Notes: a model not told the origin generated them from the sequence alone. A stretch of 64,000 bases of DNA from Nitrospira sp. (GCA_024760545.1 CP060501.1:3922036-3986035), one strand, 5' to 3'. Shown: positions 28,636 to 38,086, numbered from the stretch's first letter. Numbers and translations are program-made.

Positions 28636-29874
28636 TCAAAACGTTTCATCCCCAGTCGGCTCATAGTGCGGCTCAGCGTTCATGTCGTGTCGCAACTTCG
28701 ATAACTCGAAATACATTCGGCGCCGTGCCCGGCTTTGATTGCCGAGCGGGCGGTGCTCGGCGATGCAGTGCCACGGGTTGTAGGATAGGCGTCGCGCGAA
28801 CGCGATCTGCGCCGGTGCGTCAAACTTCTGTTTTGGGATGCGCAAGGTGGCCACCGAGACCCGGGGCGACAGTCGCTCCGGCCACAGCACCGCATTGTTT
28901 TCGATCGGCATCAGATGAGGATCGGTCTGTAACTGCAAGCGAATATCCAGCTCGACATCGCCCTGATCGAGCGCGGCGACCATGGCCTTGCGCAGGTAGT
29001 CATCAGGCGGCCGCAGCGGCAGGCGTGGGATTGGGGTTTTCTTGTTTGATTTCGGCCACACCGAATACTGCATCGCCTGCCCTTCTCCCAGCAGATAGGG
29101 CACACAACTGAAGTACGGCGCCTCGAACGGGCTACTCTGCGTCTTGATCCACAATCCCTGCATGATGAAGTCCAACAGGTGGGGACGGCGAAGATTGAAA
29201 AAGTAGAACATCTGCGCATTCTTCAGGCTCTCAAGTTGCAACTGAGCATTCGCGCGCGTGTCCGGCGTGACAAAGGTCGGCGTGGACACGCCAAACATAT
29301 CCTGCGTGAATTTCTCCTCGTCCATTAATTTTGGACCGGGAACTCCCATCAGCTTGATGCTGATGCTCATGAACCCCACGTCGTCGATGTCCGGCGTCAC
29401 GTAGGGCCCGGGCCCGGAAAAGCGGACCCATGCGCGATAGGTTTTGGGTTGCGCGTAGATACCGTGTCGGAACCGAGACGGCAGGCCGTCATGGACGATG
29501 AACTCCGCGCGCACGATGCCGTGGGTCTTGGTATTTCCGCCGCGTTCGAATCCGCCCGGCTTCCACAGCCCGCGCATCTGCTTCCGGAAGGTATCGATGA
29601 TCGATTGGAGCGAACTTTCTTCGTCTGGTTGCACCCGTTCCTCGGCAATCTTCAGCCCTTCGTCCCGACGCTGCCAGTTGATCAGGGCGGTGGTCAGACT
29701 CGTGATCGGGTCTCGCAGCACCGCATCGAAGGCCGGACGCATCCAGGGATCGATGCGCCGCTGCAGTTGCACCAGTCGCAGGGACGTATCGCTGATCCAA
29801 TTGAGAACTGCCGAACCCGTATTGGAAGGCGGCACCGGGCGGCTCGTGTTTGAACCCAACACGTTCCTTGTCAT
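28636..29874 (-). CDS. Catalase-superfamily heme protein (y4iL/SrpA-like)
   Basis: 412-residue protein resembling the minimal catalase-related family rather than true catalases. It shows THGIVRAEFIVHDGLP, a likely distal-heme strand with His, then TYRAWVRFSGPGPYVTPDID, VGFMSISIKLMGVPG and FGVSTPTFVTPD, and the C-terminal NPWHCIAEHRPLGNQSRARR, which matches the conserved end of the family. Members act as peroxidases or as hydroperoxide-converting enzymes such as allene oxide synthases. The ATG at 29874 follows AAAGGGG; the frame upstream overlaps the peroxidase gene and is not used. Last gene of the heme cluster, 11 bases after the DyP gene. Confidence 0.82.
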   Translation of the reverse strand: MTRNVLGSNTSRPVPPSNTGSAVLNWISDTSLRLVQLQRRIDPWMRPAFDAVLRDPITSLTTALINWQRRDEGLKIAEERVQPDEESSLQSIIDTFRKQMRGLWKPGGFERGGNTKTHGIVRAEFIVHDGLPSRFRHGIYAQPKTYRAWVRFSGPGPYVTPDIDDVGFMSISIKLMGVPGPKLMDEEKFTQDMFGVSTPTFVTPDTRANAQLQLESLKNAQMFYFFNLRRPHLLDFIMQGLWIKTQSSPFEAPYFSCVPYLLGEGQAMQYSVWPKSNKKTPIPRLPLRPPDDYLRKAMVAALDQGDVELDIRLQLQTDPHLMPIENNAVLWPERLSPRVSVATLRIPKQKFDAPAQIAFARRLSYNPWHCIAEHRPLGNQSRARRRMYFELSKLRHDMNAEPHYEPTGDETF

Positions 29875-29885
29875 GGTGACCCCTT

Positions 29886-31397
29886 TCAGCGCGCCGTGGC
29901 GAGGTACCGCAATGCGCGAATACCGGGCAGGAAAAAGTAGGCGCCGCCTTGCACGGTGACGAACCGTGGCAGGCCGGTCAGCCGTCGATCCGGACCATCG
30001 GCTTGCGGAATCGAGAAGCCGTCGGTGGGAGAATCTCCGGGGTCCGGCAATCGATGGCCGAGCAGTGGGTCGCTTTCGCCGGTGAGCCCGGCAAACTTGC
30101 TCCCGATCAACCACGCGCTTTGCACGAACTCGAACTGGCGCTTGATATTGGCCACAAGGCAGATGAAATAGATCCCGGTCTCCGTGCAGGGCGAGGATTG
30201 CGTCGCAGACAGCTCAGGCGTTACGCCTGCACCGAATGTTCGTCCACGGCGAAGCAGGCGATGAAAGCGTGTCGATGCGACCAAATCCTGTTCCAGCGCC
30301 GCTGCGTTGAATCCCAACATGCGCCACAGACGCGAGAGGATTCCCCCCGGGCCGCCCGGCAAATCCGCATTGCGCGGATTGGTCCGGCGAATGTGAGCAC
30401 CCAACGGGCAGCGCAGCCCTCGCGGATCAGCTCCGTAGGTGAAGTCGTTCAGTTTTGATTGCTGCGCGGCAGCGTCGCCGGCGACTGAGTCCTCGCTTGG
30501 CGCGACCAGAGGTTCGCCATTCTTCTTCCGGCCAACCATCGCGGCGGCTAGTCGCTCGCGCAAGTCCGTATTGCCTTCCGCTTGCCGGTCCAGTTCGCGC
30601 CAGAAGCCTTGCACGTCCTGGTGAAGTTGACGCAACACGAGATAGCAGCCGTTGCGTCCGAGGTCGGCTTGGTCCGGCGCGTCTTCGGCTCTCGGCAGGA
30701 GAGCATCGGGGTCACGCCGTGGAGTAAGCAGCGGACGCGGTGTGTAGAGCCCGTATTCGTTGGGATAGCCGAGCAGGAACTCGCCGAGGCAACTCACGTT
30801 GCTGTACTCGAGCTGGTCCTGGTCGCGCACCGGGCGCTTGCGCTCCCAATCGATTTGCGGTTGCGAAATGCCGTCGACGAATCCAAACGGTTCCACGCCA
30901 TGTAAATCGGATGTCGACAGGCGTTCGATGCGCACGAATCCGGCCCCGCATTGCGCTTCGATCTCCTGTTCCCATGTCGCCAGTCGCCCGGAACGGGCAT
31001 ACAGAAGCACGGCGACGTGCGGCACCCGCTCCCCGGCGCCCCAATGCCAACCGCTTGGATCATTGGCGCCGATATCTCCCAGACGGCGCGCACGTGCGGC
31101 ATCACTCGCCACGCCGGCGACAAATTCAGCTGAAAACTCCGCGAGCAGGTCGGGGGCGAACTCCAATGCACGCAGTCCCTCGCTCGTGAGGGCGACGTGG
31201 AGCGCAGTCTCGGGCAGTGGATCGGCCTTGACGGCGCTCGTGACCGGCGCCTGCGCCAGCCACGCGCGCGCAGCGGCCGGATCCTTGACGCGCAGTAGGA
31301 GAAAACAAGCTTCCGTCAGGTGCTTGTACCCGAACCGCACCAGGCCCTGAACGTCGTCCAGTTCCACAGACCGCCCCTGACTCAGGATTGTGCTCAT
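29886..31397 (-). CDS. DyP-type heme peroxidase
   Basis: 503-residue dye-decolorising peroxidase. Diagnostic are the distal GFVDGISQP motif (Asp175), the proximal heme histidine in RCPLGAHIRRTNPR (His335) and the terminal FVTVQGGAYFFLPGIRAL. It is longer than bacterial A/B-type enzymes (about 300-350), matching the larger C/D-like class. There is no signal peptide and no C-terminal encapsulin-docking tail. Its start overlaps the stop of the upstream membrane-protein gene (ATGA), so they are coupled, which suggests the two act together. Substrate unknown. Confidence 0.92.
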   Translation of the reverse strand: MSTILSQGRSVELDDVQGLVRFGYKHLTEACFLLLRVKDPAAARAWLAQAPVTSAVKADPLPETALHVALTSEGLRALEFAPDLLAEFSAEFVAGVASDAARARRLGDIGANDPSGWHWGAGERVPHVAVLLYARSGRLATWEQEIEAQCGAGFVRIERLSTSDLHGVEPFGFVDGISQPQIDWERKRPVRDQDQLEYSNVSCLGEFLLGYPNEYGLYTPRPLLTPRRDPDALLPRAEDAPDQADLGRNGCYLVLRQLHQDVQGFWRELDRQAEGNTDLRERLAAAMVGRKKNGEPLVAPSEDSVAGDAAAQQSKLNDFTYGADPRGLRCPLGAHIRRTNPRNADLPGGPGGILSRLWRMLGFNAAALEQDLVASTRFHRLLRRGRTFGAGVTPELSATQSSPCTETGIYFICLVANIKRQFEFVQSAWLIGSKFAGLTGESDPLLGHRLPDPGDSPTDGFSIPQADGPDRRLTGLPRFVTVQGGAYFFLPGIRALRYLATAR

Positions 31398-32704
31398 AGC
31401 AGCTGTAACCAGGCTTGAGCCTGCGTATCAGTCACGTGCGCAAGCTCCAGCCCTTCCCTGATGCGCTGGTTGCGCTTGAGGTTGACCAGGGCCAGGCCCG
31501 GGTAGGCCTGGTACCAGACCTGTGTCGGCAACTGATGGCGCCGCTGGTAGTGCTTGAACTTGTTTTCAATGCGTGCGCCGCGCGCGACCAGCCAACGCGT
31601 GCGCGGCCAGCCCACGCCGTGGCTGAAAGCGAGATTCAGGCCCCACGCCACCTTGTTGATGAAGTCATCCATGTAGGCCTCGTGGCCTCCGTCATAGTTG
31701 CTGGTGAAGACGAGCCGACGATTGTCATCGAGAAAGGCCCAGAACGCGAAGTGAATCGTCTGCACGCGTGCGAGAAAACCGCGCGTGAAGACATGGCGAC
31801 AGGTATAGTCGATCAGCACCAGCAGCACCGTCACGAGCCAGCGGCGAAATAGCCCCGGCTTGACCGAGCCGAACGCCGTGTATTGGTTGGTCACGTCGTA
31901 GTCTTCCAGATGTTGCAATTCCAGGAGCGCCGCGCGGTCCGGGGGCGGGCATATTTCGGCGTCGCTGTTCTCTTTCGTTCGCAAGACGAGGATCAAGAGC
32001 GGCGACAGGACAATCAGAAACGGCAGCAGGATCAGGCCCGCCAGCGGAATCGTAACGAGATGGAGGAACTTGGCGATGTGCCAGCGCAGTGGTGTCGGCT
32101 CCGGCGGCGTCAGGCCAAGCCTCCCGGCGCTGACTTCAGCATCGACGAAGTCGATCAACTCGCGCCGGAGTTGCTGAGCTTGCACGGCCGATGCGATCGC
32201 CGCGCGCGGCACTCTCGCGGCGAGAGCACGTTGCAGTGCGCTTTCCTCCTTGACTTGCCGTACCGTGCGACCGACCCAGTTGATGTAGTTGGCAGCGAGT
32301 CGATGTTGATGCGCTTGCATCCAGGGTAGTAGATCCTCATCCGCGTTGAAGCCGTCGCAGTGCATGAAGATTCGGCGCAACCCCGTGTCCGCGCGCCGAG
32401 CCAGATCCGCGATGCACTCGCCTGCTGATCCGTCACAGCTACCGATAAACGCAAGGTAGACGGGTAGGCTCGGGCGTGGGACACCGTGCGCTTCGATGTC
32501 GCCGAGCGTGGGATCGTCCAGCACCACCAGCCGCGCAAAATGAAGGCGTTCGAACTGCCCGAATGGCAAGACCGCGTTCGTTGGGTCGGCCATACCTGGC
32601 TTCGAATTCATCGTGTTCAGCAGTTCCCGCAGACCGCGTTCCCGACCTGGCGTGACCGGTGCCACCAGCATGAATTGGGACTGCGGAGTCACGGCATCAC
32701 CCAT
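31394..32704 (-). CDS. Membrane protein with duplicated ferredoxin-like module, linked to the peroxidase
   Basis: 436-residue protein of unknown function. Two similar modules flank a membrane region: LHFARLVVLDD (54-64) with FIGSCDG (86-92), and IHFAFWAFLDD (317-327) with FTSNYDG (333-339) and a following YMDDFINKVAWGLN. The spacing and pattern suggest a duplicated alpha/beta barrel domain of the DyP/EthD (dimeric ferredoxin-like) kind, which is inference. Membrane helices are likely at about 214-241 (HLVTIPLAGLILLPFLIVLS) and weakly at 286-300. It is coupled to the DyP gene by an ATGA overlap. Confidence 0.75.
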   Translation of the reverse strand: MGDAVTPQSQFMLVAPVTPGRERGLRELLNTMNSKPGMADPTNAVLPFGQFERLHFARLVVLDDPTLGDIEAHGVPRPSLPVYLAFIGSCDGSAGECIADLARRADTGLRRIFMHCDGFNADEDLLPWMQAHQHRLAANYINWVGRTVRQVKEESALQRALAARVPRAAIASAVQAQQLRRELIDFVDAEVSAGRLGLTPPEPTPLRWHIAKFLHLVTIPLAGLILLPFLIVLSPLLILVLRTKENSDAEICPPPDRAALLELQHLEDYDVTNQYTAFGSVKPGLFRRWLVTVLLVLIDYTCRHVFTRGFLARVQTIHFAFWAFLDDNRRLVFTSNYDGGHEAYMDDFINKVAWGLNLAFSHGVGWPRTRWLVARGARIENKFKHYQRRHQLPTQVWYQAYPGLALVNLKRNQRIREGLELAHVTDTQAQAWLQLL

Positions 32705-32728: not shown

Positions 32729-34702
32729 CTATCCATGGTGTGCTCCCGCTCCCGACGCCACGGTTGGTTCACGACGGGGTGCGAGGCAGGCCGGTAAGGT
32801 GTCGTAGTCCTGTCGCAGCAAATCTTCCGCGTCAAAGGTTGCACCCCGTGTTCGGTGGATCGCTGCCACTGTTTCTTTGCGAAGCATCTGCAGATCTGGA
32901 TGACTCTTCCACTGGTCCAGGCTCACTCGGTGATGCAATAGATGCATGGCCGGCGGCATCGGCGCTTCCAGCTGTGCGGGACCGGCAAGATCCCACATGC
33001 CTAACCGCACGAAGATCCGATCGGCACATTGCGTTAAATTCGTCTCGACCTCGGCGGGAGACCCATGGAGAAAGTTCGGGGGGAAACTATCCTCTCCATG
33101 ATGGCAGGCACCACAATACTGATGGAACGTCTTGTGTTCGCCGATCAGTGAAGCCTCGTGTGCCACGCCTGGTCTGGGATGAGAGGCAACTTCGTCGTCC
33201 ACCGGCAGGGGCATGCCACGATCATCCAGACAGCAGCGAGCGACGACCGGAACGCCCAATTGCTGATCGAGTGCCGCCAAGAGTGTCACACGGCGGAACG
33301 GCTGGTTTGCGAACACATCAGTTCGGCTCATCAAGGTCTCTCGTGCCACGGCGCTTACCGCATGTTTGAACCGCTCAGGTTGCCGATGTGCCACGTGTTT
33401 CAGTCGATCGAGATCCACTGGAGTGAAAAACTGCGCGAACGTAGTCAGGACTCGTTCGAGTGTCTGTGGAGTATCGGGGACGGTCCACACTTCCAGTGGT
33501 TCTCGCGGCAGCGTCGGTTCGTGCGGTCCGCGAAACAAGGATCGTGGTTCTCCTCCCTCCAGGGCAGTGGCTTCTACCTCACTGAGCCCTGGAAACTCGC
33601 TTACCGCCACATACCGAAACGGATTGCGGTTGGGGATATCCGGATTGGGAATGGACAGCCCTCGCGGCCAGCGTGCTCGCCACGTGGCAAGGAAGGATGG
33701 TGGCTCCACGTGGGGATCTCCAGTTTGCCAATCCTGGACCGATCCTTTTGACATCGCATACCGGAGCACCCGCTCGATCAGTTCGGCTCGACACCTGATC
33801 GACTGTTCCGGTCGATCGGCCTGTTCGCATCCCTCGCGCCAGAGCAGGTGGGCCAGCGAAATCTCGTTGGCTCGGTCGGTGGCATCATCGAAGGCCTGTA
33901 GCACACCCACCCCTTGTCGAATGGGAAAGCCGTGATATTGGCGGCGTTGATGCGCAATGAGCGCGGCGATTTTGGGATTGACGTTGGTTTCATCCCACAT
34001 GGGTCGGGAAAAGATGGGGCTCTGATTCTGGTGGCAGGCGGTGCAGAGTGCACGGTTGGCATACCGAACAGTCGGCGTGCCGCCGGCCAGATAGTTGCTG
34101 ACAATTTGAAACTCGAACCGGCCCGCCGCCTCGTTATAGCTGATGATCTCCAATACAGCCGTCTTTTCGTGGTAGCCGATGAAGAGCCGATCTTTGAGAT
34201 GTAGGCTCGATGCGCCTAAGGCCGAATCGGCTTCCGTATCGACAGCGAGCACAGCTCGCGGATAGGTAAAGTACTCGCCGTCGCCGGCCCGCCGCTGCAG
34301 CGAGCGATTGACGGGAATCAGCAATCGTTTCAGGGCCGGCTGTGCGTGTTCGGGATGGAGGTGCGATTCGATGCGAGCCAACAGAGCGGAAAACGGAAAT
34401 GGAATGTCATAGATCTTCTTACCGTTCACGTTCTTTGTAATAAGGAAATCGAACAGAGATCGCCCAATCGGTGGAAGGTTCGTCCCTGGTTCGGTCGGAT
34501 CGACAACCCATGGTGGTATCGTGGAGCTGGGAGGCGAAAGAGCAGTAGATTGTGCAACCTTGGCAGGCCGTTGGTCAGCAGACGTTCCTGCATCTCGGGG
34601 ATCACATCCTGAAACCAATACCGTGATCATGACCATACATCCCAATCTCGTCGCCCACAGTCTGGCCATTCGTCGCATGGTTTGTCCGGTTGACATTCGC
34701 AA
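32729..34702 (-). CDS. Diheme c-type cytochrome lipoprotein
   Basis: 657-residue exported protein. A signal peptide ends in the lipobox LVSGC near residue 33, so it is probably lipid-anchored at the envelope. Two c-heme sites are seen, CTACH (220-224) and CGACH (530-534), about 310 residues apart. The order and distance do not match short cytochromes c or classical diheme peroxidases. The start is uncertain: TTG 34702 lies directly after the upstream stop codon, ATG 34696 and ATG 34678 are alternatives. Probably passes electrons to or from the other heme proteins of the cluster. Confidence 0.82.
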   Translation of the reverse strand: MRMSTGQTMRRMARLWATRLGCMVMITVLVSGCDPRDAGTSADQRPAKVAQSTALSPPSSTIPPWVVDPTEPGTNLPPIGRSLFDFLITKNVNGKKIYDIPFPFSALLARIESHLHPEHAQPALKRLLIPVNRSLQRRAGDGEYFTYPRAVLAVDTEADSALGASSLHLKDRLFIGYHEKTAVLEIISYNEAAGRFEFQIVSNYLAGGTPTVRYANRALCTACHQNQSPIFSRPMWDETNVNPKIAALIAHQRRQYHGFPIRQGVGVLQAFDDATDRANEISLAHLLWREGCEQADRPEQSIRCRAELIERVLRYAMSKGSVQDWQTGDPHVEPPSFLATWRARWPRGLSIPNPDIPNRNPFRYVAVSEFPGLSEVEATALEGGEPRSLFRGPHEPTLPREPLEVWTVPDTPQTLERVLTTFAQFFTPVDLDRLKHVAHRQPERFKHAVSAVARETLMSRTDVFANQPFRRVTLLAALDQQLGVPVVARCCLDDRGMPLPVDDEVASHPRPGVAHEASLIGEHKTFHQYCGACHHGEDSFPPNFLHGSPAEVETNLTQCADRIFVRLGMWDLAGPAQLEAPMPPAMHLLHHRVSLDQWKSHPDLQMLRKETVAAIHRTRGATFDAEDLLRQDYDTLPACLAPRREPTVASGAGAHHG

Positions 34703-35617
34703 TCACTGGGTTTCCGCTACCCGGGCATGTTGGTTGCCCGGCTTGTTGGTCATCGCCGTCATGCGTTGATTACCGATCCAACAGTCTTCATTGATGGACC
34801 CAGAGCCGACAAAGCCAGGTGCCTCCTTCTCCGCGACCGCCTTATTGTAGAGGGTGAAATTCAATGCGAAGACCTTTCTGATGTAGGCACGCCCAAGATA
34901 GAACCCGGGGCGAACCATGCGAATCTCGTCGCGTATCTCCAAGCCTTCCCGTCCGGCCAGCACGTCCGGCATCTCGCGGTAGCCAGGCAGGTCGTCCGTA
35001 AAGGCATAGTCGATGATGATGGATTCTCGACGCCCATCCAGCAGGCTCTGACCACAATAGAGTTTCGCGGGGAACAACAACCAGGCGTCCTTGCCGTCTA
35101 CGTCCAGTTTTTGGATCTGCTCGATGTCGGGACCCACAATCGGCTTCAGGATGCGCAGATCCTCAATGCGATTTCGAAGTACTCCTTCGCTGCGATAGAA
35201 GACCTTCCCTTTCCAGATAAATTCACCGACGTGCTCGAGTGTGGCGGCCTTGAGGTCGACGATGAATCCTTTGATGCCTCCTCCGACGATTTCGGCAAGG
35301 CGGGCCCGTTCGCTCGATCCCTTCGGGAAAAACATTTGCCCATCGTAAACCCCGTCCGGAACCGGGCCGGCTGTCAGGCGGGCATAGATCTGATCGATCT
35401 GTTCCTGAGTGGCCCCCTTGAGATTGTCCGGCGTGACCTTCATGAGATCGGCCGGCTTGAGGGGGGACTCGTGCTCCAGTCGGGCCAAGTCGATCTTGTC
35501 GGAATATCGTTCGCCGCCCTGGGCGAAGGGAATCGGCGGCGGATCTGGGTTACAGCCGAGGAGAACGGTTTGGCTTACCATCAAGCCGATTGCTATCAAC
35601 CATCGTGTGCGTCTCAT
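34703..35617 (-). CDS. Lipoprotein of unknown function in the heme cluster
   Basis: 304 residues with a signal peptide (WLIAIGLMVSQTVLLGC) and lipobox cysteine at 22. The mature part contains PDGVYDGQMFFPKGSS, FIWKGKVFYRSEGVLRNRIE and YRESIIIDYAFTDD-like segments; no family is recognised and no heme motif is present. Its stop codon directly abuts the start of the downstream cytochrome, and GAGGT precedes its ATG. Context suggests an envelope partner of the cytochromes, possibly binding a lipid-like ligand. Confidence 0.75.
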   Translation of the reverse strand: MRRTRWLIAIGLMVSQTVLLGCNPDPPPIPFAQGGERYSDKIDLARLEHESPLKPADLMKVTPDNLKGATQEQIDQIYARLTAGPVPDGVYDGQMFFPKGSSERARLAEIVGGGIKGFIVDLKAATLEHVGEFIWKGKVFYRSEGVLRNRIEDLRILKPIVGPDIEQIQKLDVDGKDAWLLFPAKLYCGQSLLDGRRESIIIDYAFTDDLPGYREMPDVLAGREGLEIRDEIRMVRPGFYLGRAYIRKVFALNFTLYNKAVAEKEAPGFVGSGSINEDCWIGNQRMTAMTNKPGNQHARVAETQ

Positions 35618-35647: not shown

Positions 35648-38086
35648 TCAGAGTGTCGCGAGGAACGCTGTCAGCGCATCCTTCTCCTGATCCGAAAGAT
35701 CTTCGCCGAATCGGTGCCCATCGTTTTCGATGACCGCGAGACTGTTGCTGTAGATCTCGCGCAATTCCGCTCCGGCCTCGAGTATCGATCCCGGTTTCGC
35801 GAGCAACTCCGTTCCCTTGTCTTGGATCGTTTTGGCGATCCGTTCGCCTTTTTCTGCTCCATACCGGTCGGCGTACTTGGCTTTCAGTTTGTCGAAATTT
35901 ACCCGTGCCATGACGAGGTCTCCCACCAGCTCCTTGTGACGGAAGTTCCCAATGCGCGCGGCCGGCGTGCCGACCGGAAAGCGAATGGCCGTGTCAATAA
36001 AACGTTCCAGCTTGCCGTCACCCAGCTTCGGGAACAGCCGAATGGTTACGTCGGAATTGAACCCGGTCACTTTTGGAATTCGTTGGGATGGGTTGAGGAG
36101 CTCTTTCATCGACGCTTTGTAGAGCGTGAATCGACCCTCTACGCTGGGATCGAAGACCCAACAGGGCGGCGGGCTGGCCAGCGGCTTCCCATCTTTATCG
36201 ACATATGGCGGGTAGTAGTGTTCGTCCAATGGGCCACCGCAGACTTCAGGGCCCACTGCGTTATCGTGCATGAATGGCGCATAGGCCCATAGGCTGAGCA
36301 AGGATATGTTTCGGTAGTAGCCCCGTCCACCGTCGGAGGGTTCCTTGAGTTGAGGATCACCGGGTTTTGCCCGTAAGGTTTCCGAGGCGTACTCTTCCCA
36401 AACATGGCCTTTCATGTGATTGGAATGGAGGGAGCGAGAACGGTTTGTGCCTACCTCACTCACGGGGATGAGCTTGTCGTTCCCGAGCCAATCGACGCGA
36501 ATGCCTTTGTCCTTTGGATCTGTGGAAACCGTTCGAAAGTCTCGATTCTCGAACGGTCCGCTCTGGCTGGAATGGCACGAAGCGCATTTGCTCGCGAAAA
36601 TCGTGCGGCCCTTCTCGACTGCCCCTTTACCGAATTCCTTATTGAGTTGTTCGACAAGCGCGGCGTTGTTCTTCAACCCACGCGCTTGGTACAGATCGGC
36701 CGGGGCTCCAGTTAGCAAGAACTGAGCGATTTCGCCCAAGCGATCTTCAATCGCCCGGAATTGCGAACAGTCCCGGCGAACCTGTCCGATGTCGAACGGC
36801 GTCTGCCCAAAGCCGCGCATCGTGGGATCGAGTTGGCGCATATCCGTAAGATGGTTGACCCACCCTTCCTCGGAGCAGCTTCCGATGTTGAAGTACACAC
36901 GTTGAATTGCTTCGAGTGTCCCGATACTGTCTTCTCCACCTTTCAAAATATGGTGAACGAACTCTTTCTTTCGGCCCCGCTCCCAGCACTTGCCGTCCTT
37001 GCCCGGCTCGCACCAACAGGTCCGCTCGTCTCCTCCAGCCGGACATTGGTTGGTCTTGCGCCATTTGATGATGTCTTCCTCAAAGGTCGGCCGCTTGGCC
37101 AGATTGATAATTGCGTTCATCGTGCCGGCATTGTTGACCTGATCGTTGGGAATCGCGGAGGTATCGACGGCACCCGGCCTAGAATGTCCGTATATTTGGT
37201 ATTCAATGGTGTTTGGCGCCATTCCCGACCCTAAGATCTGCGCAAATCGGCCGTATTGATTGCCGACCGTACCGGAGAGATTCTCCCATTTCGGATGGGC
37301 GGGATCTTTAGGAGGATGGAGTGGGTCAAAGGCGATGTGGCAGGCTCCGCAGGACATGCCGATGCGATAGGGCGGTTCAATGGAGCCATCGACTAAATGA
37401 CTCTTCGCTGGCGCTTCGCGGTCCTTCCGCGGTGCCACTTTGGCCGTATAGCCGTCCCACGAGTCCAAGTGCCCGCCGTTAATCTTCAGCCATTTCACCT
37501 TGTCGAACTTTGGATTGGGAAATTTTCGCAACCCCAGTGCTCCGGTCGACGTACCGAATTCGAGGTCGCAGGCTGACTGACGCATATCTTTGGGACCGTG
37601 CGGATCATCTTTGGCGAGTGGAACATCCTTCAAATCGCAGGCGGGATCGCGATAGCCAGGCTTCCCGACATGCTTGAGCAATTCGTCATCGCCCGGGCAA
37701 TAGTCAAACCCATAGGTCTCGTCATAACTCTTCGCCGGACACTGAGGATCGCCCGGTGTACAGCAGTCCGGATCGTTGATGAGACCCCACCGATGGAAGC
37801 GTTCCGCGCGCGTGTCGCTGCGCAAGACCCGATACCAGTCAATCATGACGCCGAGCCGTTGCTGATAGACGTAGGTAAAGAAACGCGCATTGCCGGCCGT
37901 GGCGTTGAACCAAATGTCCGCTCCGACTCGCTCGGCCTCCGTCAGATTCTTGCCATATTGGAACGGTGAAGTGATGGGGGTGTTGCTCGCGGCATTTACC
38001 GGTCCATCGTGTAGGGCGAATGAACCGACAAACAAAGCCAGGCCGAGCATGATGGTAAGCACTGCGTGTGTCCGTCGTATGACCAT
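35648..38086 (-). CDS. Large periplasmic diheme cytochrome c (RoxA/MauG-like family possible)
   Basis: 812 residues with a signal peptide (LTIMLGLALFVGSFALHDG, cleavage likely after NAA). Two heme-attachment sites, MSCGACH (246-250) and SKCASCH (501-505), lie 255 residues apart, with a cysteine-rich insert (CWCEPGKDGKCW) and extra Cys-containing loops near 108-150. The size, spacing and C-terminal layout recall RoxA/MauG-type diheme enzymes, which oxidise organic substrates with oxygen or peroxide; this is a tentative fold assignment. It is the first gene of the six-gene cluster, with AGGAGG six bases before the ATG. Confidence 0.82.
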   Translation of the reverse strand: MVIRRTHAVLTIMLGLALFVGSFALHDGPVNAASNTPITSPFQYGKNLTEAERVGADIWFNATAGNARFFTYVYQQRLGVMIDWYRVLRSDTRAERFHRWGLINDPDCCTPGDPQCPAKSYDETYGFDYCPGDDELLKHVGKPGYRDPACDLKDVPLAKDDPHGPKDMRQSACDLEFGTSTGALGLRKFPNPKFDKVKWLKINGGHLDSWDGYTAKVAPRKDREAPAKSHLVDGSIEPPYRIGMSCGACHIAFDPLHPPKDPAHPKWENLSGTVGNQYGRFAQILGSGMAPNTIEYQIYGHSRPGAVDTSAIPNDQVNNAGTMNAIINLAKRPTFEEDIIKWRKTNQCPAGGDERTCWCEPGKDGKCWERGRKKEFVHHILKGGEDSIGTLEAIQRVYFNIGSCSEEGWVNHLTDMRQLDPTMRGFGQTPFDIGQVRRDCSQFRAIEDRLGEIAQFLLTGAPADLYQARGLKNNAALVEQLNKEFGKGAVEKGRTIFASKCASCHSSQSGPFENRDFRTVSTDPKDKGIRVDWLGNDKLIPVSEVGTNRSRSLHSNHMKGHVWEEYASETLRAKPGDPQLKEPSDGGRGYYRNISLLSLWAYAPFMHDNAVGPEVCGGPLDEHYYPPYVDKDGKPLASPPPCWVFDPSVEGRFTLYKASMKELLNPSQRIPKVTGFNSDVTIRLFPKLGDGKLERFIDTAIRFPVGTPAARIGNFRHKELVGDLVMARVNFDKLKAKYADRYGAEKGERIAKTIQDKGTELLAKPGSILEAGAELREIYSNSLAVIENDGHRFGEDLSDQEKDALTAFLATL

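Follow-up and report, generated by a model that had tools for sequence, protein, structure and literature searches.

A predicted tandem-barrel protein with a probable membrane helix as a proposed dedicated partner of a DyP-type peroxidase in Nitrospira and other bacteria

What may be the function of a protein that carries two similar pairs of sequence motifs, one on each side of a hydrophobic segment, and that is encoded directly beside a DyP-type peroxidase? This question is raised by a gene at positions 31394..32704 (minus strand, stop codon counted) of the Nitrospira sp. window, the whole stretch of 64,000 nucleotides that was analyzed. The unbroken reading frame encodes a product of 436 amino acid (aa) residues, designated “FIND,” which no family in Pfam or NCBIfam matched. 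A sequence-only reading of the window had suggested an internal duplication of ferredoxin-like modules, in a fold also used by DyP enzymes, and had proposed that FIND might be an accessory to the peroxidase derived from the same fold.

The motif pairs are part of an N module (aa 8-165, 32210..32683), delimited by DSSP analysis of a structural model and a profile match to the other half, and a C module (aa 270-421, 31442..31897), delimited by DSSP; these features are on the minus strand. The N module contains the beta2 motif LHFARLVVLDD (aa 54-64, 32513..32545) and the beta3 motif FIGSCDG (aa 86-92, 32429..32449), the C module the beta2 motif IHFAFWAFLDD (aa 317-327, 31724..31756) and the beta3 motif FTSNYDG (aa 333-339, 31688..31708). 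The reported distance of 263 residues between the beta2 copies is correct (aa 54 and 317), and the beta3 copies are 247 residues apart (aa 86 and 333) because the beta2-beta3 loop of the N copy is longer. The only strong hydrophobic segment, peaking at aa 208-245, is located between the copies, as had been stated. When judged by itself, the Nitrospira sequence does not make the repeat convincing: a local BLOSUM alignment of both halves yielded a score of 40, which was reached in 57 of 2,000 shuffles, and this alignment was partly out of register.

Profiles built from 64 aligned FIND relatives gave a clear result. The profiles of the N and C halves matched each other in hhalign with an E value of 5.3e-8 and a probability of 94.8% (aa 9-162 with aa 273-420), and the score was 54.8, whereas none of 199 column shuffles exceeded 27.3 and a reversed profile yielded 17.2. 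By this self-alignment and its shuffle controls, the internal duplication is real; it emerged in the explicit N-versus-C run, while a comparison of the full profile with itself in hhalign gave no off-diagonal row. The family consensus contains HFAR-F/W-V-x-L-D in both halves, and H55, R58, D91, and G92 in the N module as well as H318, D338, and G339 in the C module are invariant in 64 of 64 relatives. The second copy in Nitrospira is atypical, with IHFAFWAFLD at the site of the IHFARWVFLD of the family; judging from the alignment, this protein represents the second repeat copy poorly, and the consensus displays the repeat better. The C module is the more conserved one and holds most of the invariant columns, among them the polar residues H318, W322, Y337, D338, D346, D347, N350, K351, R388, H390, and W397. 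A Pfam search with the 64 relatives returned 22 weak matches to no consistent family, none of them ABM or SchA.

An AlphaFold2 model calculated from the 64-row alignment reached a pLDDT of 90.3 and a pTM of 0.90. According to DSSP, both halves of this model display the order beta-alpha-beta-beta-alpha-beta, composed of beta8-17, alpha22-30, beta54-62, beta83-91, alpha94-113, beta136-141, and alpha148-162 in the N module, and of beta272-281, alpha285-304, beta317-325, beta330-338, alpha341-361, a helix at 369-390, beta396-399, and alpha406-420 in the C module. A ferredoxin-like module is predicted in each half, as had been suspected, and the two predicted halves share one fold instead of being unrelated. 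The top solved match of the model was WhiE-ORFI (9lmn; Z 14.0, 225 residues, rmsd 4.2), followed by the polyketide decarboxylase AbxO (9ltx; Z 11.3), to be compared with the best Z values of 7 to 8 that are usual for models without a clear structural match. Both structures superpose across aa 3-401 of the model and cover both FIND modules simultaneously. This whole-chain superposition on tandem barrels indicates that the modules, as modeled, pack into one intramolecular dimeric alpha+beta barrel (DABB). Among PDB sequences, the FIND profile retrieved chance-level matches only.

The assumption of a fold shared with DyP holds at the level of the broad class, since DyP units have also been described as dimeric alpha+beta barrels (PMC11168072); it does not hold for the nearest folds, which are tandem ABM/SchA-like. 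Descent of FIND from DyP was not borne out, with an hhalign probability of <1% for the DyP family profile against either half. The best-scoring structures listed for the model included no DyP peroxidase, which is no proof of different folds. The expectation of an accessory protein unlike DyP profiles was correct, for no DyP match appeared in Pfam, NCBIfam, or hhalign. FIND possesses no AHIRR-like string or recognizable DyP heme-ligand His motif, although the conserved histidine residues H318 and H390 exist, and is probably heme free. A GxxDG-like string, G88-x-x-D91-G92, ends beta3 of the N module, and the profile does not align the DyP motif there.

The neighboring gene (29886..31397, 503 aa) starts 4 bp inside the end of the FIND gene in an ATGA overlap. 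Its product contains the motifs GFVDG and AHIRRTNPR, scored above the cut-off of PF20628 and below that of TIGR01413 (E 4e-23), and matched the solved DyP structures 8re3 (E 4e-45) and 8re2 (E 1e-44). With the GxxDG motif, the proximal His, and the DyP profile all present, its sequence identifies it as a DyP-type peroxidase. The residues D175, H335, R337, R338, and R342, which represent the GxxDG, AHIRR, and Arg positions, are conserved in at least 93% of the DyP partners of FIND.

This neighborhood is not a peculiarity of Nitrospira. Genome loci were fetched in 80 cases, 78 of them with sufficient downstream room, and in all 78, from several phyla, the gene directly downstream of FIND was a DyP gene of the same orientation, the gap according to tblastn coordinates being -3 bp in the median; these loci were collected with FIND as bait, so that 78/78 says nothing about the share of DyPs without FIND. 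The pair occurs in Nitrospirota, several classes of Proteobacteria, Acidobacteriota, Verrucomicrobiota, and others. Pairwise FIND distances were correlated with the DyP distances at r = 0.94 over 72 loci (permutation maximum, 0.095) and with those of the catalase-like gene at r = 0.78 (permutation maximum, about 0.1). The coupling to DyP, for which co-occurrence had been named as a check, is stronger than the sequence-only reading had assumed. Obligate pairing, parallel divergence, and a natural fusion suggest that FIND is a dedicated partner of the DyP encoded downstream.

Some relatives of FIND contain a single module. Two of these, L013 (236 aa) and L008 (249 aa), come from Nitrospirales genomes, are devoid of a strongly hydrophobic helix, and are followed by a DyP gene, and both are matched by the N-module as well as by the C-module profile, in the case of L013 with E values of 8.5e-10 and 1.5e-21, respectively (nominal database of 100,000). 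The N-module profile also gives a weak match to the C half of L007, a diverged paralogue with two modules. The simple reading would be a homodimeric ancestor with one module that was later duplicated into a single chain. FIND may offer a clean case of such a transition from a probably homodimeric single-module protein to a fused pseudo-dimer, with single-module relatives persisting. At L102:7790-12701 and L103:3086-8374, single-module relatives are encoded next to a FadL-like gene and to DyPs of unusual length (942 and 994 aa). At L102, the genes beside the single-module form encode a FadL-type transporter and a protein with weak similarity to lipases, and a gene for a GAF histidine kinase follows.

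The fusion was found in alphaproteobacterial plasmid proteins of 1423 to 1620 aa, which contain the C module and are annotated as “cytochrome P450” or “Dyp-type peroxidase domain-containing.” Pfam placed a P450 at the start and a DyP at the end of these proteins and blastp placed FIND in between, so that they represent single P450-FIND-DyP polypeptides, encoded by plasmids of Novosphingobium, Pararhizobium, and Sulfitobacter (L098:3814-8142, L099:3832-8100, and L100:3778-8637). In the L099 protein, FIND covers residues 433-901 and DyP residues 926-1412 according to blastp. A Rhizobium protein of 780 aa (L101) combines FIND with the initial part of DyP. At two Nitrospira loci with diverged paralogues, L104 and L105, P450, FIND, and DyP are separate genes in the order of the fusion, and in L104 a gene for an LCAT-like lipase comes after DyP. 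The I-helix of a usual P450 carries an acid-threonine pair. The fused P450s contain GF-V/G-PT instead, which suggests that O2 may not be activated in the classical way by these P450s.

The segment between both modules (aa 206-247, 31964..32089) is a hydrophobic helix according to hydropathy and the model, and it contains Pro220, Pro228, and Pro235. These prolines are kept in 59 to 63 of the 64 relatives, and the maximum mean hydropathy over 19 residues of the linker is between 2.27 and 3.14 in 64 of 64. The helix is a probable membrane anchor, most likely in the cytoplasmic membrane. Its hydrophobic run of about 30 residues falls short of what a clear two-pass anchor requires. With a single pass, one module would be located on each side of the membrane, at variance with the modeled single intramolecular barrel. 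Since this packing needs both modules on one side, the helix would more probably be inserted in a kinked, monotopic, or hairpin manner than as a single pass.

The Nitrospira block comprises, all on the minus strand, the genes for RoxA-like, U304, CYTX, FIND, DyP, and the catalase-like protein, and is flanked by mutS2, a housekeeping gene, on one side and by what we take to be glycyl-tRNA synthetase genes, likewise housekeeping, on the other. Within the fetched stretches of the 80 loci, the catalase-like gene was present in 73, the RoxA-like gene in 65, and the U304 domain in 77. The catalase-like protein CAT, product of the third gene (28636..29880), had no match to Pfam Catalase, and its family profile found among solved structures the coral allene oxide synthase 1u5u (E 4.6e-6) as best match, followed by AOS-LOX 3dy5 (E 7e-5). 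The distal heme His67 of the coral enzyme pairs with Asn116 of CAT in a weak N-terminal alignment, with 6.4 bits for the stretch; this Asn is invariant in 60 of 60 sequences and conserved to >90% in alignment A3. In CAT, an Asn apparently replaces the distal His, a tentative assignment.

U304 (34703..35617) combines a lipoprotein-like signal, seen in Nitrospira, with a lipocalin/FABP-like barrel domain, which is conserved near FIND and exists elsewhere in short versions of about 145 aa. No Pfam family matched U304, and its model (mean pLDDT 69) had 4mve as top fold match (Z 10.5), while its Z values of about 5 with fatty-acid-binding proteins were within the background. The RoxA-like protein (35648..38086, 812 aa) is a diheme c-type cytochrome with two CxxCH motifs and weak matches to the NCBIfam families RoxA/RoxB and CytoC_perox. 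The cytochrome-like CYTX (32729..34702) also contains two CxxCH motifs. A full CYTX occurred among the fetched loci only as the Nitrospira cluster version and in one gammaproteobacterial MAG (L080). Pfam found GMC oxidoreductase genes in the two loci tested, from Rhodoferax (L032) and Nitrosomonas (L079). In Desulfopila (L096:2522-6498), genes for an animal-type heme peroxidase (PF03098) and a second catalase-like protein are located directly ahead of U304, FIND, DyP, and the catalase-like gene. Several of these matches are weak. Taken jointly, the allene oxide synthase-like CAT, the RoxA-like protein, lipases, FadL, the heme peroxidase, and U304 point to a lipid-type substrate, and these predicted neighbors favor a lipophilic hydroperoxide over general H2O2 defense. 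In separate comparisons, the profiles gave no support for a common origin of FIND with DyP, CAT, or U304.

To understand the biological meaning of this arrangement, FIND is tentatively regarded as a membrane-attached, non-heme substrate-handling partner of DyP in a cascade that processes hydroperoxides. FIND is built by duplication of one ferredoxin-like module, with both modules packed as one alpha+beta barrel in the model and the proline-rich helix between them most likely seated in the cytoplasmic membrane. A lipophilic substrate or intermediate may be bound in the cavity of the C module, the more conserved of the two, and FIND may dock DyP, plus the P450 where present, at the membrane. An upstream oxygenase would produce a lipid or isoprenoid hydroperoxide, which would be handed via FIND to DyP and to the catalase-like or P450 enzyme for conversion. 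This account starts from the duplication, the fold, the obligate gene pairing, the parallel divergence with DyP, and the P450-FIND-DyP fusion as documented above; we infer in addition that unfused FIND and DyP form a physical complex and that FIND handles the substrate rather than acting as a catalyst. A precedent for a noncatalytic ABM partner is ForS, which has been described as chaperone-like in a multienzyme complex (PMC6689052). In an extension of this account, rather unlikely as a whole, an oxylipin-type system would be widespread among bacteria, with lipid or isoprenoid hydroperoxides as the substrates of DyP. The duplicated-barrel adaptor would tether DyP to the membrane, where it would be arranged in a row with a hydroperoxide-converting enzyme of the catalase-like or P450 type; in some species, the P450, the adaptor, and DyP would form one polypeptide.

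The strongest rival to this account is that FIND itself may be a cofactor-free enzyme. It would be an ABM-type cofactor-independent cyclase, oxygenase, or decarboxylase with the active site in the C module, acting on what DyP or the catalase-like or P450 enzyme produces. This is possible, albeit somewhat less probable than a handling role. The closest folds of the model include cyclases, decarboxylases, and oxygenases, namely, WhiE-ORFI, AbxO, an anthrone oxidase-like protein, and the TcmF2 cyclase; however, a function cannot be deduced from a fold match, and noncatalytic roles are possible among ABM proteins (PMC6689052). The C module is far richer in invariant polar residues, as would be expected if, after a duplication, activity was retained at one of the two sites. 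Such residues could equally mark a catalytic site, which speaks against mere handling, but their invariance may also stem from contacts with DyP.

Alternatively, the block may provide a general defense against peroxide and oxidative stress at the membrane by DyP, the catalase-like protein, and cytochrome c peroxidase-like proteins, with FIND as a passive anchor of DyP. Several heme proteins in one block and the hydrophobic helix of FIND would fit. This explanation is nevertheless improbable, because CAT does not match Pfam Catalase, has an allene oxide synthase as its best solved relative, and carries an Asn, weakly aligned, at the position of the distal His, and because the P450 fusion, the lipases, FadL, and the animal heme peroxidase suggest a substrate pathway. 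Very improbable is a degenerate heme-free paralogue, derived from DyP and regulating it through pseudo-oligomerization, since the shared broad fold class (PMC11168072), the adjacent genes, and the GxxDG-like string in the N module are opposed by the lack of profile similarity to the DyP family (hhalign, <1%), by the ABM/SchA-like nearest folds, and by the location of that string at the end of beta3, unaligned with the DyP motif by profile.

In the literature searched, which covered few subscription papers, no description of the FIND gene block or of a P450-DyP fusion was found, which is not to say that they are novel. P450-peroxidase fusions of another kind are known, such as CYP5619 (PMC5919972). 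The fold class of FIND and its partner enzymes are known, and it is their arrangement for which no description was found. The physiological function of DyP peroxidases is described as still largely unknown (PMC11107159), and the clade of DyPs treated here has an obligate partner, a protein without a name so far. The natural P450-FIND-DyP fusion indicates that these proteins belong together, the neighbors narrow the probable substrate class, and DyP function becomes directly testable in cultured hosts, e.g., Variovorax or Nitrosomonas europaea.

Among known systems, the DyP peroxidases themselves (PF20628/PF21105, TIGR01413) have, like FIND, two ferredoxin-like modules per chain and are its strict gene partner, but neither half of FIND is similar to them by profile, and Pfam gives no DyP match. 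WhiE-ORFI, a SchA/CurD-like tandem ABM protein, and AbxO also contain two barrel modules per chain, and ABM-type proteins work inside multienzyme oxidative or cyclizing pathways, which resembles the setting of FIND. The identity to FIND is just 13% and 10%, respectively, FIND has no Pfam match, and in contrast to both proteins it possesses a hydrophobic helix between the modules and a DyP instead of a polyketide synthase as partner. ForS and accessory proteins of the ABM superfamily are likewise ferredoxin-like-barrel partners, proposed to be noncatalytic and chaperone-like in enzyme complexes, and ABM domains occur fused to pathway enzymes (PMC6689052); unlike FIND, ForS is a single-domain protein of a type II polyketide pathway without a heme enzyme partner. 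Finally, oxylipin cascades include the coral AOS-LOX, the fungal DOX-CYP, and the oomycete CYP5619 P450-peroxidase/dioxygenase fusions (PMC5617202, PMC13049297, PMC5919972). Neither a DyP nor a FIND-like tandem barrel partner is described for them; as in the FIND block, however, heme enzymes of hydroperoxide chemistry are fused or co-encoded, and catalase-like proteins and P450s are interchangeable.
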